From an uncultured Clostridia bacterium (GTDB lineage: Bacteria; Bacillota; Clostridia; Oscillospirales; Acutalibacteraceae), in contig CANQUV010000003.1 in assembly GCA_947627135.1 (NCBI GenBank), forward strand, positions 1 to 64,000: a stretch of 64,000 nucleotides of DNA. Direction: 5' to 3'. Below are positions 37,375-55,340 of the stretch, in pieces. A program made the position numbers and the translations under genes. How positions within the stretch are numbered: the first letter of the stretch is position 1; each line of letters begins with the position of its first letter. Below the pieces are notes generated by a model. The model saw only the letters and a list, made by a program, of their open reading frames with translations. It did no database searches and was not told where the DNA came from.

Positions 37375-38820
37375 TCAGTTGGTGAGTCTTTTTAGCAAAA
37401 CAAGGTCTTTGTTTGTGATTTTGTTATCTTGATTTAAATCACAGGCAACAGTTTCAACATCAGTTAAAGATATTTGGTTAAGCAGATAATTGAACATTTT
37501 ATTTAAATCAAGGGAATTAACATTTCCTTCACCAGTTAAGTCACCGTTTACAGCAATTTTAAATTGTACTTTTTCATTTCCTTTTGAAAATATTACTGTC
37601 ATTCCGGTTCCGATATTTCCGCTTGTTTTTATATTACCGCTTTTGTCATACAACGTAATTGTACCGTTGCAGTTAATATTCTTCTTGAATTCTGTAACAG
37701 ATGTTTTGTTATCAATGTTGTAAATAACATTTCCGTCCTTAAATTTATAAGTGTTGCTTGAATATTTCAGCGGACTATTATCACTATTGTTTGTGTCATT
37801 ATTTTTTGATGAACCTCCATTATTGGAACCGGAATTTCCGTCTGAATTTTGTGAAGCTCCGTTTGTGTTAAGTTCTTTGTCTGTGATTTTATAAACATAG
37901 AACTGATTGCCGCTGTAACCGCCTACATAAATATAGGAATTATAATAATAAATACAACTTATATTTATATCGAAACTGTAATATACAGTAACGGATGGAT
38001 TCGTAATACTGTTACCGTAAATTGAATTTTGATAAGAATATAAATAATAATTGTTTGTTTTAATACAATTTATATTATCGGCATTAAAATCTGCAATTAA
38101 ATTCAAGCTGTTATTTTGAAGTTCAAATAATTTTCCCTGATAATCGCATACAGTATTATTACCGGTATAAGTACAGGGCATTATAAGATCATCGCTTGAA
38201 TTAATACTTTTTAAAGTATTGTTTTCAATACAGTACATTCTACTGTCACAAATACAGTAAATTTTTTTGTTGAAAAACATAAGCTGTTCAGTAGTGTACA
38301 CAGTGCTTATTTTTGACAAAAGTTTTCCGTTTTTTGAAAATTTAAATATACTGTCAGCATCAGGATAATAAGTGGTATAAATGTTAAAATCATTATCGAT
38401 TGCAAAATTAAACTGGTTAAGTTTGCACTGAAAACTTAAATTTATTTTGCCATTGTATTTACCGTCAAAACTTTTGATTAAAAAATCATAAAAATATAAA
38501 TTATTTTCTTTATGTTCCAAATAAGCCGCACAAAATCCTTTTTCGCTTAATGCATAGAGTTCAATATTTTTTTCGATATTAAAGGAATACTGCATATTAT
38601 TGTCAGAAACATTATTATAAATAAAATTATTATTGCTTATTCCAGTAACCATAAGTTGATTATCGGCATTAACAAATTTTAATGTATTAATATTATTTGT
38701 ATTGCTGAATTTAATTCTGTATAAGGCAGAACTGTAAATAGTACCGGTAATTATTGATATAATTATTGCAACAGCTGATAACGAGACCGTCCATATTTTA
38801 ACATTCCTAATTTTTATCAC
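37375..38820 (-). CDS. Membrane-anchored propeller-like protein with C-terminal dockerin-like domain
   Basis: TM helix IWTVSLSAVAIIISIITGTIY; repetitive beta-rich middle; GDLTGEGNVNSLDLNKMFNYLLNQISLTDVETVACDLNQDNKITNKDLVLLKRL. Start revised to GTG near 38820 because the full ORF overlaps yebC. Confidence 0.75.
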   Translation of the reverse strand: MIKIRNVKIWTVSLSAVAIIISIITGTIYSSALYRIKFSNTNNINTLKFVNADNQLMVTGISNNNFIYNNVSDNNMQYSFNIEKNIELYALSEKGFCAAYLEHKENNLYFYDFLIKSFDGKYNGKINLSFQCKLNQFNFAIDNDFNIYTTYYPDADSIFKFSKNGKLLSKISTVYTTEQLMFFNKKIYCICDSRMYCIENNTLKSINSSDDLIMPCTYTGNNTVCDYQGKLFELQNNSLNLIADFNADNINCIKTNNYYLYSYQNSIYGNSITNPSVTVYYSFDINISCIYYYNSYIYVGGYSGNQFYVYKITDKELNTNGASQNSDGNSGSNNGGSSKNNDTNNSDNSPLKYSSNTYKFKDGNVIYNIDNKTSVTEFKKNINCNGTITLYDKSGNIKTSGNIGTGMTVIFSKGNEKVQFKIAVNGDLTGEGNVNSLDLNKMFNYLLNQISLTDVETVACDLNQDNKITNKDLVLLKRLTN

Positions 38821-38826
38821 CCCGAA

Positions 38827-38863
38827 ATTAAAAAGGCAACAGAATTTTCCGTTGCCTTTAATT
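38827..38863 (-). terminator. Terminator downstream of yebC
   Basis: TTAAAAAGGCAAC...GTTGCCTTTAATTT. Confidence 0.65.
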
Positions 38864-38866
38864 TGA

Positions 38867-39607
38867 CTATTCTTCCGGCATCTCCCAGTTGTGCCAAACG
38901 TTTTGAATATCGTCGTTATCTTCAAACATATCAAGCATTTTTTGCATATTTTCACGCACTTTTTCGTCTTCAATAGCCGTATAAGTATCAGGAACCATCT
39001 CAACTTCAGCAGAAACAAAAGTATATCCTGCATTCTCAAGGTCTTGCCTTACACCGCTAAAGTCTTCCGGCTCGGTGTAGATAGTGAAGATATCGTCGTC
39101 AGCTTCAAAGTCAGATGCACCGAATTCAAGAGCGTCTTCCATAACTTTATCCTCGGTTTTGTCAAGGTCTTCACGCTCAATAACTAAAACGCCTTTCTTC
39201 TGAAACATAAATCCTACGCAACCGGGTGTTCCCATATTTCCACCGAACTTGTCAAAATAATGTCTTACTTCACCGGCAGTTCTGTTTCTGTTGTCGGTAA
39301 GAGCTTCAACTATTACTGCAACGCCGCTGGGACCGTATCCCTCATAAGTAACAGATTCATAGTTGGCAGTATTGGAATCACCGGCAGCTTTTTTTATAAT
39401 TCTTTCAATGTTATCGTTAGGAACATTGTTAGCTTTAGCTTTAGCAATACAGTCTCTCAATTTAGAGTTTACATTTGGATCGGCACTGCCTCCGTCACGA
39501 ACAGCAACTGCCAGTTCTCTGCCTATTTTAGTAAATATTTTAGCACGAGCAGCGTCGTTTTTACCTTTTTTCTGTTTAATAGTACTCCATTTATTATGTC
39601 CGGACAT
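38867..39607 (-). CDS. yebC: YebC/PmpR family transcriptional regulator
   Basis: [53 protein letters not shown]. Confidence 0.96.
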
Positions 39608-39800
39608 AAATTCACATTCTTTCTTAAACATATTATTGAACAGAAAAATTATATCATAAGAGAATATACGATGTAAACACGAAAAACGGTTACAGTTTTG
39701 TTACAAATCTATTGCCAAACATCTTTGTAAATGCTACAATAAAATGGAAACAAAATAAGTGTTTTGCAGAATAATTTACATATAGAAAAGAGAATGTAGC

Positions 39801-47936: not shown

Positions 47937-48974
47937 TTGCTTAATGATATTAAATCTTTCACTTATGATGAGCTTGAAAATTTAATAGTAACAGCAGGAT
48001 TTCCAAAATTCAGGGCAAAGCAAGTTTCACTCTGGCTAAAAAAAGGTGTTTCCGATTTTGATGAAATGATGAATATTCCCAAAAAAATTCGTGAATTTTT
48101 AAAAATAAGTAGTTACATTTCTGTTGCAAATATTGAAAAAAAAATGATTTCAATGTATGATGATACGGTGAAGTACCTTTTTAAATTTAATGACGGCGAA
48201 TGTGTAGAGTCTGTTGTTATGAAATACATACACGGTTACAGTATATGCGTATCTACACAGGTAGGCTGTAAAATGGGATGTACTTTTTGTGCAACTGGGA
48301 AAAGCGGTTATTCCAGAAATTTAACACCATCTGAAATTATTTGTCAGATTGAAGCAGCCCAAAAAGATTTGAATATAAGAATAACCAATGTAGTACTTAT
48401 GGGTATGGGCGAACCTTTAAATAATTTTGAAAATGTTGTTAAATTTTTAAATCTTGTAAGCAGCAAAGATAATCTCAATATCGGATTAAGACACATAACC
48501 TTATCGACCTGCGGAATAGTACCAAAAATTTACGAGCTTGCAGATTTAAGATTGCCTGTAACCTTATCTGTTTCACTTCACGCACCAAATGATGAAATTC
48601 GTTCAAAAACTATGCCCATCAACAAAAAATATAAAATCAGTCAGTTGATCGAGGCTTGTATATATTATTTTAATACAACAAAAAGGCGAGTTTCTTTTGA
48701 ATATGCTATGATAGAAAATGTGAATGATTCAGAAGAAAATGCAAAAGAGCTTGCAAAACTGCTGTCGGTTTTCCCCTGTCATGTGAATTTGATACCGATA
48801 AATGCAGTAGAAGGAACGCATTATAAAAAAAGTTCTAAAATAAGGCAAAAGGCGTTTATAGAGATTTTATCAAAAAAAGGAATAAAAGCCACTGTCAGAA
48901 GAACTTTAGGAAGCGATATAAATGCTTCCTGCGGACAACTTAAAAGAAACTACGAAAATAAAGGAGGTAAATAA
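47937..48974 (+). CDS. rlmN: 23S rRNA (adenine-2503-C2) methyltransferase, radical SAM
   Basis: GCKMGCTFCATGKSGYSRNLTPSEI, NVVLMGMGEPLNNF, LSVSLHAPND. Confidence 0.96.
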   Translation: MLNDIKSFTYDELENLIVTAGFPKFRAKQVSLWLKKGVSDFDEMMNIPKKIREFLKISSYISVANIEKKMISMYDDTVKYLFKFNDGECVESVVMKYIHGYSICVSTQVGCKMGCTFCATGKSGYSRNLTPSEIICQIEAAQKDLNIRITNVVLMGMGEPLNNFENVVKFLNLVSSKDNLNIGLRHITLSTCGIVPKIYELADLRLPVTLSVSLHAPNDEIRSKTMPINKKYKISQLIEACIYYFNTTKRRVSFEYAMIENVNDSEENAKELAKLLSVFPCHVNLIPINAVEGTHYKKSSKIRQKAFIEILSKKGIKATVRRTLGSDINASCGQLKRNYENKGGK

Positions 48975-48975
48975 C

Positions 48976-49701
48976 TTGGAAGTTTTATGCAAAAGCGATG
49001 TAGGCTTAATAAGGGAACAAAATCAAGATGACTGCCGCTTCGGAGTTATTTCCCCAAGTTGCGTGTGGGCTGTTGTATGCGACGGTATGGGCGGAGCACA
49101 AGGAGGAAATATAGCCAGTGCAACAGCTGTTGAATATATAAATTCACAGGTAGAACAACTTTATAACGAAGACCTGACAAAAGATGAGTTAGGAAATTTA
49201 ATGGCAGAAATAGTAGTAAACGCAAATTTAAAGGTTTATGAGCTTGCCTCATCCGACAGCGAATTGGCAGGAATGGGAACAACCTGTGAATTTGTATTTG
49301 TGAAGGATACAACGGTTCATATAGTTCATATAGGCGACAGTCGAACCTATGCCATAAGAGGCGGAAAAATTAAGCAGCTTACGGAAGACCATTCGGTTGT
49401 AATGGAAATGGTAAAAAGGGGAGAGATCACATCGGAGCAGGCGCAAAATCACCCCAATAAAAATTATATAACACGAGCATTAGGCGTTAAGCCTGAAGTA
49501 CACCTTGATTATATAGAAGCAAACTTTATTTATGGAGATGTACTTCTGATATGTACAGACGGTCTTTCAAATTGTGTTTCAACAGGAGACATGGTAAAGA
49601 TATGTCATGAAAACAGGGGAGAAAAGCTAACAGAAAAATTAGTTGAAAGAGCAAAAGAAAACGGCGGACCTGATAATATCACAGTAACGGTAATATATTG
49701 A
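48976..49701 (+). CDS. stp: PP2C-type serine/threonine phosphatase
   Basis: SDVGLIREQNQDDCRF, VCDGMGGAQGG, HIGDSRTYAIRGG; TTG start with AAGGAGG RBS. Confidence 0.94.
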   Translation: MEVLCKSDVGLIREQNQDDCRFGVISPSCVWAVVCDGMGGAQGGNIASATAVEYINSQVEQLYNEDLTKDELGNLMAEIVVNANLKVYELASSDSELAGMGTTCEFVFVKDTTVHIVHIGDSRTYAIRGGKIKQLTEDHSVVMEMVKRGEITSEQAQNHPNKNYITRALGVKPEVHLDYIEANFIYGDVLLICTDGLSNCVSTGDMVKICHENRGEKLTEKLVERAKENGGPDNITVTVIY

Positions 49702-49716
49702 GAGGAGTGTTGAATT

Positions 49717-51888
49717 TTGGATAAATACATCGGCAAAAAGCTTGACGGACGATATGAAATTCATGAACTCATAGGTGTAGGCGGTATGGCGAATGTATAT
49801 CGTTGCACAGATACAATAGACGACAGAGAAGTAGCTGTAAAAATATTAAAGGACGAATTTCTTAATAACGAGGAATTTATCAGGCGTTTTAAGAATGAAT
49901 CAAAAGCGATAGCTATGTTATCACATCCTAATATTGTAAAAGTTTTTGATGTAAGCTTCGGAGATATGATTCAGTATATTGTTATGGAATATATTGACGG
50001 CATCACTCTCAAAGAATATATTGAAATGCAGGGTGTTTTAAGCTGGAAAGAGGTTGTGCATTTCACAACACAGATACTAAAGGCATTACAACACGCTCAT
50101 GAGAAGGGCATAGTTCACCGAGATATTAAGCCGCAGAATATCATGTTGCTTCAAAACGGAACGATTAAGGTGACTGACTTTGGAATTGCCCGATTTTCAG
50201 ATAAAGCAACAAAAACCATGACAGAGCAGGCAATCGGGTCAGTTCACTATATTGCGCCCGAACAGGCAAGAGGTGCGTCAACAGACGGCAAATCAGATAT
50301 ATATTCAGTCGGAGTAATGCTTTATGAAATGCTTACAGGAAGATTGCCCTTTGAAGCAGACAGTGCTGTATCAGTTGCATTAATGCAGCTTCAGTCAACA
50401 CCAACAATGCCGAGGGTGATTAATCCTGACATTCCCCAAGGTCTAGAGCAAATAACAATGAAAGCTATGCAAAAGGATCCTGATAGACGTTATCAGTCAG
50501 CTGTTGAACTTTTGACTGACCTTGAAAGATTCAGGTTGAATCCGTCAGTTACCTTTGACTATAACTATTTTGTAGACGAGCAACCTACAAAGGCAGTTGG
50601 CGATTTAAGAAGACCTGACAAAAAAGATGATAAAGAAAAGAAATCTCTTAAAAAATCAAAAGAAAAAGAAGAGTATAATGACGAATTTAACAGAGAAAAA
50701 GATGCTGATGAAGATACAGGAGTAATTGAAAACTTTGAAGATGAAAATATTAAAGTACATAAACCCGCATATTATGCGGTAAAGGGTGCTTTAATATCTG
50801 CGGTTATAGTAATTATAATTATTTTGTTGTTATGTGTTTTCAGAGCTTGCTCAACCTCACAGGCATCAGATGTTGATGTACCTGAATTCGTAGGAAAGAC
50901 AATTGTTGAAGTACAGGAAAGCAATCCCAATAACTTTAACTTTGAAATTAAGACCCAGTATGATCAGTCACAGGAAATAGGCTTGATACTTGAGCAGGAG
51001 CCGGAAGCAAATTCAATGAAAGTAAAACAGGGCTCAACAATTACGTTGACTGTAAACGGTACAGATACAAATGTAACAGCTCCATTTGTACTGAACACTT
51101 CAGAAAAAGAAGCTGCACAATTAATTAAAGATAAAAATTTAGTACCTCAGATCATTTATATAGAAGATACTCAAACTTCTAAAGGATATGTATCAAATGT
51201 ATTTCCAAATGCCGGGACCCAACTTACAATCGGCTCAAATGTTTATGTATATATTGCAAGCGGAGCAAGAGAAGAGAAGGTTACTATTCCTGATGTTACA
51301 GGCCTGCCTTTAGCGTCTGCACAGGAAAAACTTGAAGCATTGGGGCTTACTGTTGAAACGACCTATGATGATGAAAGTAAAGAAACTAAAGATACTATAC
51401 TTAACCAATCACCTTTGCAGTACGGTAAGGTTACAAAAGGAACAAAGGTTAATCTTGTAGCAAGCGCCGGTAAAGAAGATGAAAATAAAGTAACAATATA
51501 TGTTGATTTGCCATCTAATGTTACAAAAGAAATAAATATGACAGTACTTGTGGACGGAGTTGTAAATACAACATATTCAAAATTAATTTATCCTCAGTAC
51601 ACGCGAACAACAACTTTGGAATTTGAAGGTACAGGAACATCTCATATAGTTGTTCAATTAGACGGTAATGTTTATAGAGAGTATAATATTGACTATTCTT
51701 CAGGAAATGTATCAACAACAACTTATGAATATATTCCTCCTACAACAGAACCGGTAACTGAAACTCAACCTTCAAGTACCGTACCGGAAACTACCCAACC
51801 TCAAACTTATGAACCGACTGAAAGTGTGCCTGAAACAAATGATACTGTTTCCGAACCTAATTACAATAGTACAGAAAATGTACGATAA
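49717..51888 (+). CDS. prkC: PASTA-domain serine/threonine protein kinase
   Basis: VAVKILKDEF, HRDIKPQNIML, VTDFGIAR, APEQARG; TM helix; three PASTA repeats; Thr-rich tail. Confidence 0.96.
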   Translation: MDKYIGKKLDGRYEIHELIGVGGMANVYRCTDTIDDREVAVKILKDEFLNNEEFIRRFKNESKAIAMLSHPNIVKVFDVSFGDMIQYIVMEYIDGITLKEYIEMQGVLSWKEVVHFTTQILKALQHAHEKGIVHRDIKPQNIMLLQNGTIKVTDFGIARFSDKATKTMTEQAIGSVHYIAPEQARGASTDGKSDIYSVGVMLYEMLTGRLPFEADSAVSVALMQLQSTPTMPRVINPDIPQGLEQITMKAMQKDPDRRYQSAVELLTDLERFRLNPSVTFDYNYFVDEQPTKAVGDLRRPDKKDDKEKKSLKKSKEKEEYNDEFNREKDADEDTGVIENFEDENIKVHKPAYYAVKGALISAVIVIIIILLLCVFRACSTSQASDVDVPEFVGKTIVEVQESNPNNFNFEIKTQYDQSQEIGLILEQEPEANSMKVKQGSTITLTVNGTDTNVTAPFVLNTSEKEAAQLIKDKNLVPQIIYIEDTQTSKGYVSNVFPNAGTQLTIGSNVYVYIASGAREEKVTIPDVTGLPLASAQEKLEALGLTVETTYDDESKETKDTILNQSPLQYGKVTKGTKVNLVASAGKEDENKVTIYVDLPSNVTKEINMTVLVDGVVNTTYSKLIYPQYTRTTTLEFEGTGTSHIVVQLDGNVYREYNIDYSSGNVSTTTYEYIPPTTEPVTETQPSSTVPETTQPQTYEPTESVPETNDTVSEPNYNSTENVR

Positions 51889-53505: not shown

Positions 53506-53581
53506 GGGGATGTAGTTCAGCTGGAAGAATGTTTGACTGGCAGTCAAAAGGTCGTGGGTTCGAGTCCCATCATCTCCACCA
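53506..53581 (+). tRNA. tRNA-Ala (anticodon GGC)
   Basis: Cloverleaf with anticodon loop CTGGCAG; acceptor GGGGATG/CATCTCC with G3:U70 wobble (Ala identity element); encoded CCA. Confidence 0.85.
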
Positions 53582-53717
53582 GAATGTTTATAACAAAACT
53601 GTAACTATATTATCCGTACAGTTTCTTGATTTTTAAATATTTATTATGATATAATTAACTAAAGTGTATTAATATAGGTTATTAGCGTTAAATTTTGATT
53701 AGTTTGGAGTGAAACAA

Positions 53718-55340
53718 ATGTCATTGTGTATGGGTTGTATGCAAGAAATCGGTGATAATACAATATGTCCAGGATGCGGTTTCGATAATACTCAAACTCA
53801 GTCAGCACCGTTTTTGCCTTATAAAACTGTTTTAAATAACAGGTATGTTGTAGGAGAAGTAATTGATAATAACGGTGAAAGTACTCGCTACTTAGGATTT
53901 GATAAATTAACAGGCGATATTGTAGTTATATGTGAATTTTTACCTATTGGTTTATTTGAAAGAGAGCAGGATTCTAAAGAAATAAAAGTTTCTTATGAAA
54001 ATGAAGCTGTTTATAAAAAACTACTTGATGAGTTTGTATCTTACTATAATACATTATCAGATTTAAAAGAACTTTCAGCGCTGGTTGAAATACATGAGAT
54101 TTTCAAAGAAAATAATACAGCTTATGTTATAGAAGAAAACGAGGATTTAATTCCCTTTGAAGAATATGTAAACAGAAGCAGCGGACATTTGGAATGGGAT
54201 ATAGCAAGACCGCTGTTTATGCCGCTTATTTCAGCCCTGGAGGCTATGCATAAAAGAGGGATCGGCCATTATGCAATTTCCCCTAAAAATATTTATGTAA
54301 CAGCATCAGGCAAAATTAAAATTACAGGTTTTGCAACACAGAATGAGAGAAAACGAGGCACATATTTAAAATCACAATTGTTTGGCGGCTGTGCAGCGCC
54401 GGAGCAGTATGCTGATAATTTTCCTCTTGATAATATTACTGATATCTACGGTTTTTCTGCTACACTTTTTTATGCTCTTACAGGTCATCTGCCTAATAAT
54501 GCACAGGAGAGAATAAAGGACAGCAGACTTTTAATGAGTACAAATACAGTTAAAAGACTTCCTCCTCATGTTGTGTCTGCATTGGCAAACGGTTTGCAGG
54601 TTAAGCGTGAAAACAGAATCACAACCTTTGATGATTTGCGTTCACAGCTTTCACTTGCGCCAACAGTTCAGGCAATTCAGGAAGAAATCTCCAGAACTGC
54701 AAGTATGGCTAAAATTGATGAAACCGAGCAGGGCGGAATGTCACATTTTTCAATTGGTATTATAGCCGCTGCAATTACAGCACTTGTTTTAGGAATTATC
54801 GGTGTTTTTGTATTAATGCAAAATCCATTGGCTTCTTTTTTTAATGACGGTGCAATTGATCAGGAAACAACAGTTAATCAAGATTGGACAGGACCAACAG
54901 TTGCAAACTATGTAGGTCAGAAGTACAGTGATATAATGTCTGCTGCTGAATCTAACAGTTCAGTAATTTTGTATCGTGCATTTGAAGATAAGTACAGTGA
55001 TGAATATGCTGAAGGGGTAGTAATGTCGCAGTATCCGGCAGGCGGTGCGGAGATTTCAAGCGACACTGAAATTGCCGTTACTCTGGTAGTCAGCAAAGGT
55101 CCTCAAATGAGAGAATTACCTGAAGTTGAAAATAAAAAACTTGATGATATTGCAGAAGAGTTAGGAAATGCAGGTTTCATTGTAACTGCCGATTACGAAT
55201 ACAGTAATGACTACGCAAAAGACAGGATTATAGCTTATAAAGACTATAAACCTGGAGATAAAGTTGAAGACGGAGCTGAAATCAGAATTATTATAAGTAA
55301 AGGGGCAGCAGCGTCAAGCTCAAATTCATCATCAAACTGA
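53718..55340 (+). CDS. Zinc-ribbon protein kinase homologue with PASTA repeats, predicted pseudokinase
   Basis: N-terminal MSLCMGCMQEIGDNTICPGCGFDN; kinase-like fold with VVICEFLP, GHYAISPKNIYV and ITGFAT in place of VAIKEFLP, HRDISPxNI and xxDFGx; APEQY retained; TM helix; two PASTA repeats. Confidence 0.85.
   Translation: MSLCMGCMQEIGDNTICPGCGFDNTQTQSAPFLPYKTVLNNRYVVGEVIDNNGESTRYLGFDKLTGDIVVICEFLPIGLFEREQDSKEIKVSYENEAVYKKLLDEFVSYYNTLSDLKELSALVEIHEIFKENNTAYVIEENEDLIPFEEYVNRSSGHLEWDIARPLFMPLISALEAMHKRGIGHYAISPKNIYVTASGKIKITGFATQNERKRGTYLKSQLFGGCAAPEQYADNFPLDNITDIYGFSATLFYALTGHLPNNAQERIKDSRLLMSTNTVKRLPPHVVSALANGLQVKRENRITTFDDLRSQLSLAPTVQAIQEEISRTASMAKIDETEQGGMSHFSIGIIAAAITALVLGIIGVFVLMQNPLASFFNDGAIDQETTVNQDWTGPTVANYVGQKYSDIMSAAESNSSVILYRAFEDKYSDEYAEGVVMSQYPAGGAEISSDTEIAVTLVVSKGPQMRELPEVENKKLDDIAEELGNAGFIVTADYEYSNDYAKDRIIAYKDYKPGDKVEDGAEIRIIISKGAAASSSNSSSN

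Follow-up and report, generated by a model that had tools for sequence, protein, structure and literature searches.

A probable zinc-ribbon PASTA pseudokinase conserved in gut Clostridia and its possible tie to PrkC

Our analysis of the gene at 53718-55340 (+) in the window (the whole stretch of DNA under study, 64,000 nucleotides from a genome of the Ruminococcus bromii group) indicated that its 540-residue product, encoded with the stop codon included, is very probably a pseudokinase: it has a kinase fold, and the beta3 Lys, the HRD Asp and the DFG Asp are all gone. A preliminary description of this DNA had already proposed as much, and the case is now stronger than it was then, since the losses are old, extend across the family and are kept under purifying selection.

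Architecture and the degenerate active site

The reading frame is open from a GTG at 53709, the start that orthologs have in common is the ATG at 53718, and the stop ends at 55340. An N-terminal zinc ribbon is followed by a kinase-like domain, a transmembrane helix and two PASTA repeats, a domain type that binds fragments of the cell wall (Table 1), and each of these parts, as first described, was recovered: the CxxC...CxxC N-terminus as C4, C7, C17 and C20, invariant in an alignment of 25 family members; the kinase-like fold and the PASTA pair as Pfam matches over the cut-off (Pkinase, PF00069, E 3.3e-12; PASTA, two matches, E 3.7e-18); and the transmembrane helix as a hydrophobic stretch that contains an AF2 helix at 348-365. 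The AF2 model, built from 45 genus sequences, adopted a kinase fold with moderate confidence (pLDDT 68.6 on average and close to 80 in the N-lobe), and its Foldseek matches comprised PpkA (E 3.5e-17, TM-score by target 0.79), Stk1 and PknA/PknB. With the protein modelled alone, confidence dropped below 50 at residues 206-224, in the activation segment; this low-confidence ERKRGTxLKSQL stretch fits a segment that might depend on a partner, although it is no proof of one.

Table 1. Features of the pseudokinase gene and its surroundings in the window
Feature	Position	Strand	Basis
PP2C phosphatase (prpC/stp type), start uncertain	48922..49701	+	ORF; order with prkC conserved in genus
prkC, intact PASTA Ser/Thr kinase, candidate partner	49717..51888	+	NCBIfam NF033483, 561 bits (cut-off 450)
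tRNA-Ala(GGC), between prkC gene cluster and pseudokinase gene	53506..53581	+	Gene order
Upstream box TATAACAAAACTGTAA, TRTAAC-N5-TGTAA form	53589..53604	+	Similar boxes in part of genus
Probable own sigma-70-type promoter, TTGATT-18-TATAAT, TG before -10	53626..53655	+	Scan and conservation
Zinc ribbon, N-terminal, C4-x2-C7 ... C17-x2-C20	53718..53789	+	Four Cys invariant, 25-member family alignment
Pseudokinase domain, residues about 37-312	53826..54653	+	PF00069; AF2 kinase fold; Foldseek
beta3 Lys position, Cys72	53931..53933	+	Sequence, genus orthologs, comparison with active relatives
alpha-C Glu position, Tyr109	54042..54044	+	Glu in 28/29 active relatives, 0/76 of pseudokinase clade
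HRD position, His184-Tyr185-Ala186	54267..54275 (Ala186 codon 54273)	+	Ortholog and family comparisons
DFG position, Gly204-Phe205-Ala206	54327..54335	+	Ortholog and family comparisons
Activation segment ERKRGT-x-LKSQL...GCAAPEQY, invariant, residues 210-231; candidate partner-binding surface	54345..54410	+	Ortholog alignment, conservation, AF2
Transmembrane helix, residues about 347-370	54756..54827	+	Hydrophobic stretch; AF2 helix 348-365
PASTA repeat 1, residues 394-456	54897..55085	+	Pfam
PASTA repeat 2, residues about 463-531	55104..55310	+	Pfam (two stretches); ortholog alignment

The three catalytic losses originally claimed, those of Lys, the HRD Asp and the DFG Asp, correspond, at the codons first given, to C72, A186 and G204, and two further ones were found, namely the replacement of the alpha-C Glu by Y109 and of the glycine loop GxGGFG by xxNGES. 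Among the genus orthologs, which include the named loci of R. bromii ATCC 27255 and YE282, Y185 and A186 are invariant (57 sequences) and G204 is present in 55/56, while position 72 is occupied by Cys in 31, Arg in 22 and Lys in one. Conservation of the substitutions among 57 genus orthologs means that they are due neither to sequencing error nor to chance. When 29 zinc-ribbon kinases, nearly all of them with the active site intact, were used for comparison, the HRD Asp was seen in 28/29 of these active relatives, against none of the 57 genus orthologs, 62 sequences from other genera and 20 further sequences; across the family it is absent from all 139 sequences, Ala or Gly taking its place in 137, Glu in one and Leu in one. 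The DFG Asp is likewise present in 28/29 active relatives but in only 10/76 of the pseudokinase clade. Position 70 in PKA numbering, in beta3, is a small residue that packs on adenine; it is Ala in 28/29 active relatives and mostly bulky or charged in the pseudokinase clade. The clade reads N-G-E-[GS] or a near variant at the glycine loop, H-[YRLG]-[AG] for HRD and GF[ACS] for DFG, with a full activation segment. Residues with a structural role were retained, the APE Glu and the Arg at R300 throughout the clade and the active relatives alike; the clade also keeps the HRD His and, in most members, the DFG Phe.

Relatives, descent and selection

Clostridial zinc-ribbon Hanks kinases of the HRDISPDN type, frequently arranged in tandem clusters, were the nearest relatives by search; they share the N-terminal CxxC...CxxC, a KE[YF]xP element after beta3 and a GYAPEEQY-like segment. 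The pseudokinase carries the paired cysteines and E[YF]xP, with Cys in place of the Lys, but lacks the HRDISPDN/DFG active site, whereas these kinases keep Lys, alpha-C Glu, HRD and DFG, vary in copy number and occupy a separate branch. The PASTA kinases PrkC/PknB/StkP/Stk1 (NF033483) resemble it in their cytosolic kinase fold, single transmembrane helix and external PASTA repeats; unlike them, it has no catalytic residues, bears an added zinc ribbon and has a fold nearer to that of the zinc-ribbon kinases. It scored 118.8 bits against NF033483, under the cut-off of 450, and combines the PASTA-kinase architecture with a lost triad. An anti-phage kinase was considered and rejected, as its PADLOC matches are to generic kinase models on which PrkC scores far higher.

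In a tree calculated with the motif columns removed, the pseudokinases formed one clade against the active zinc-ribbon kinases (SH-aLRT 99), although the sampling is not neutral, because the active kinases were picked as hits to the pseudokinase protein itself. The two main parts of the clade track two families, with one member of a third family inside the second part, and a single origin followed by vertical descent is the simplest reading. In the search of the order, the gene was single-copy and present in 42/43 sampled genomes of its own family and in 76/81 genomes of the second family (f26), including 58/58 of the near-complete ones; we take the two families to be Acutalibacteraceae and Ruminococcaceae. 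PASTA repeats were found in all 25 diverse members scanned. Further pseudokinase relatives elsewhere in the class were sought and rejected, since 14 of the best 16 loci have an intact HRD/DFG, the other two being unreadable by a simple pattern. One near-complete genome of 1.2 Mb (G452, L348:3548-4690) encodes a shortened form of 381 aa, apparently without the PASTA part and with the pseudokinase part kept (HGGLSPET), which offers a natural way to see which of the two halves is important.

For the pair formed by the window and its near relative HAN024, Ka/Ks was 0.054 in the dead domain against 0.18 in the PASTA part. Identity within the genus rose from.61 in the N-lobe to.79 in the C-lobe and.87 in the activation segment, the most conserved part. 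PrkC at the same loci displayed the opposite trend (N-lobe.94, C-lobe.84), and its own PASTA repeats were likewise variable. A relaxed N-lobe with a fixed C-lobe and activation segment is what a protein-binding role would predict, and the pattern argues for one. The domain, whose nucleotide-site lobe has lost the constraint that the C-lobe and activation segment still show, thus appears to be an ancient protein-binding module, and a non-catalytic, protein-binding function is likely. Its near-universal presence together with strong selection suggests that the protein probably serves cell-wall signalling as a functional component without enzymatic activity.

Gene neighbourhood and the relation to PrkC

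The local gene order is rsmB-rlmN-PP2C-prkC-rsgA-thiN, tRNA-Ala and then the pseudokinase gene, which confirms its reported position downstream of an intact PASTA kinase (active site VAVK, HRDIKPQN and DFG) and a PP2C phosphatase. The reported closeness to prkC holds within the genus of the window, where 61 of the 68 loci with enough DNA have prkC upstream on the same strand, three more having a prkC of lower identity (64/68), but not in other genera (0/60 loci). No neighbour is conserved across genera. Downstream HTH and phosphatase-type neighbours are shared with several of the other-genus loci, by position the nearest in the tree; the adjacency to prkC, confined to the genus, is hence recent. 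The position and hexamers of the probable promoter are conserved in relatives, although the promoter scan as a whole was at chance level, and a conserved extended -10 promoter of its own argues against simple operon membership with the prkC cluster.

Further upstream, the strict box pattern occurs in 25/75 upstream regions of the genus (0.05 expected by shuffling) and in 0/60 of those in other genera. Near-identical, WalR-box-like 16-base boxes (TRTAACAAAACTGTAA) are located at 53589-53604 and 39690-39705 (-), the latter preceding a YebC-like gene (38867-39631, -); a YebC-like gene is also found directly upstream of the pseudokinase gene in six loci from other genera of the family. A regulon defined by the WalR-like box was rejected, with 33 genome-wide matches being only slightly above the 24 of a control pattern. 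The gene at 37375-39039 (-) encodes a predicted secreted or membrane protein with an apparent type I dockerin at its end (LTGEGNVNSLDLNKM...DLNQDNKITNKDLVLLKRL), in keeping with an amylosome-type organism.

Profile searches revealed just two Pkinase matches, PrkC and the pseudokinase, in 15 of 25 gene-bearing genomes, including one of ~0.7 Mb at 97% completeness; if the output runs via a Hanks kinase, that kinase is PrkC in those species. According to PMC8262956, all Firmicutes have PrkC, and its co-occurrence with the pseudokinase therefore cannot prove a link. A functional link to PrkC is plausible at a little under even chances. The suggestion that the protein is a muropeptide-sensing partner of PrkC agrees with the shared PASTA architecture, with PrkC as the sole other Hanks kinase in those 15 genomes and with a precedent in C. 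difficile; against it stand the genus-only adjacency, the intervening rsgA, thiN and tRNA genes and the separate promoter. The genome of the window also encodes a further Hanks kinase of 673 aa (L002:364-2385 (-), contig C3 about 107 kb), with HGDIKPEN and DFG intact, a PASTA-like repeat and a YARHG-type C-terminus, which is not universal in the genus.

Two other candidate partners were rejected. Active zinc-ribbon kinases are absent from 15/25 genomes with the pseudokinase. The other candidate, by a parallel with MviN and FhaA, was a fusion of an FHA domain with an FtsW/RodA-type SEDS protein (L305:5502-7166 in the genome of the window, contig C9 about 72501-74165), but it does not track the pseudokinase gene: it is absent from f26 and present in f13 and f14, and among the kinase-domain matches listed in the order search there were none in f13 and only weak ones in f14. 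Downstream of the FHA-SEDS gene lie a penicillin-binding protein gene and secA; most genomes of the genus have an FHA gene of about 560-580 aa, with related N-termini in f13, f14 and f16 and not in f26. The FHA-SEDS protein is likely a phospho-Thr reader for PrkC signalling.

On balance, an even chance can be given to the reading that the protein is an obligate pseudokinase acting as a membrane-anchored scaffold or co-receptor, most likely in the PrkC pathway; that pathway is favoured because of the two-kinase genomes and the precedents of C. difficile and MviN. The two external PASTA repeats would locate the protein at nascent peptidoglycan, or sense it, through a presumed PASTA ligand. Inside the cell, the kinase fold would neither bind ATP in the normal way nor transfer phosphate, and could offer a cytosolic partner the conserved surface of its C-lobe and activation segment. 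The pseudokinase may bind PrkC or substrates of PrkC; alternatively, PrkC may phosphorylate it on conserved Thr/Ser residues such as T215, S219, S325 and T327. Either way, the amount or choice of PrkC substrate phosphorylation could be altered, in a direction that may be up or down. The parts of this explanation read from sequence are the catalytic loss, its age and near-universality, the selection on the dead domain and the separate promoter. More doubtful is the narrower proposal that this core single-copy PASTA pseudokinase serves as an obligate non-catalytic co-receptor of PrkC in two of the main gut-Clostridia families.

Known systems offer partial parallels. MviN of M. tuberculosis is a pseudokinase phosphorylated by the PASTA kinase PknB and works with FhaA (PMC12599244). 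MviN (ActPs3) is also a membrane protein with a pseudokinase domain and a link to peptidoglycan synthesis; it is a large peptidoglycan-synthesis protein, and ActPs3 is actinobacterial with a deletion in the activation loop, whereas in the present protein the activation segment is full and PASTA repeats are present, and the one FHA protein compared does not track its gene. CD2148 of C. difficile, an atypical and perhaps dead membrane kinase, shifts PrkC-dependent phosphorylation (PMC8262956, PMC9674922). It is likewise clostridial and has lost the HRD Asp (to Ser, with no autophosphorylation detected), but it has no PASTA repeats, and the likeness is one of features. EssB/YukC of type VII secretion, also a Firmicutes membrane pseudokinase with all three motifs degraded, belongs to a secretion apparatus, and its activation loop is attenuated, unlike the full segment here; no genes for type VII secretion were noticed around the pseudokinase gene.

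Alternative readings and significance

A lesser but substantial possibility is a scaffold in a PrkC-independent pathway, bound to another universal cytosolic or divisome partner, with the nearness of prkC being incidental. The lack of linkage to prkC in 60/60 other-genus loci, the gene's own conserved promoter and a kinase fold that groups with zinc-ribbon kinases and not with PrkC all speak for it, whereas the occurrence of PASTA in 25/25 members, an ectodomain of the same type as that of PrkC, and the fact that many of these genomes have no Hanks kinase besides PrkC and the pseudokinase point back to PrkC.

An unorthodox active enzyme, a kinase or other transferase holding its nucleotide by other residues (Arg57 in beta2, Lys/Arg72, Asn191), is unlikely. 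No displaced catalytic residues were found beyond possibly Arg57, which does not vary within the genus and is frequent in sister genera; the genus also retains Asn191. Among the 62 sequences of other genera, the beta3 Lys occurs in 19 and the DFG Asp in 10, and some f26 members retain both Lys72 and the DF-type Asp, so nucleotide binding may persist there. Two families of bacterial pseudokinases, DYD and DLHK, are predicted to bind ATP (PMC12599244), and YegI, a protein without canonical motifs, is reported as an active kinase (in a paper cited by PMC9674922). Such an enzyme would nevertheless have to work with Ala or Gly for the HRD Asp in 137/139 sequences, the alpha-C Glu lost in all examined, a bulky or charged residue at the Ala70-type pocket position and an N-lobe less conserved than the C-lobe.

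The earlier suggestion of a decoy, whose PASTA repeats would dampen PrkC by competition for muropeptide or lipid II, found no support and is very unlikely: two PASTA repeats do lie outside the membrane, but constraint is strongest on the cytosolic domain (a weak point being that the PASTA repeats of PrkC vary too), and an invariant activation segment would be superfluous in a mere ligand trap. A decaying kinase gene heading for loss is refuted despite the loss of all catalytic residues, since the frames are full-length across the whole genus and two families, Ka/Ks is about 0.05 to 0.1, the substitute motif HYA never varies and a 0.7-Mb genome retains the gene.

A review of bacterial pseudokinases recognizes seven families, ActPs1-3, GLW, CP1, DYD and DLHK, with largely unknown functions; GLW replaces HRD, DYD and DLHK keep HRD and/or DFG, and the ActPs families are mainly actinobacterial (PMC12599244). 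Judged by the published motifs and lineages, the present protein belongs to none of them, CP1 and ActPs1-2 being set apart by lineage and description only. Our literature searches, with subscription journals mostly outside their scope, found no paper on this protein. As far as sequence and the published descriptions go, this is a new bacterial pseudokinase family with its own architecture. As none of the seven is described with a zinc ribbon and PASTA domain set, it would be a further one (PMC12599244), and its anatomy is informative: the PASTA repeats are external, and the protein is near-universal in two gut-bacterial families that include the starch degrader R. bromii. Species with the minimal kinome of PrkC and the pseudokinase would allow a clean test of whether a dead kinase tunes cell-wall signalling. 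If the co-receptor reading is true, a fixed pair of one live and one dead kinase would run peptidoglycan signalling in many species, as a bacterial counterpart to the pairing of receptor kinases with pseudo-receptor kinases.
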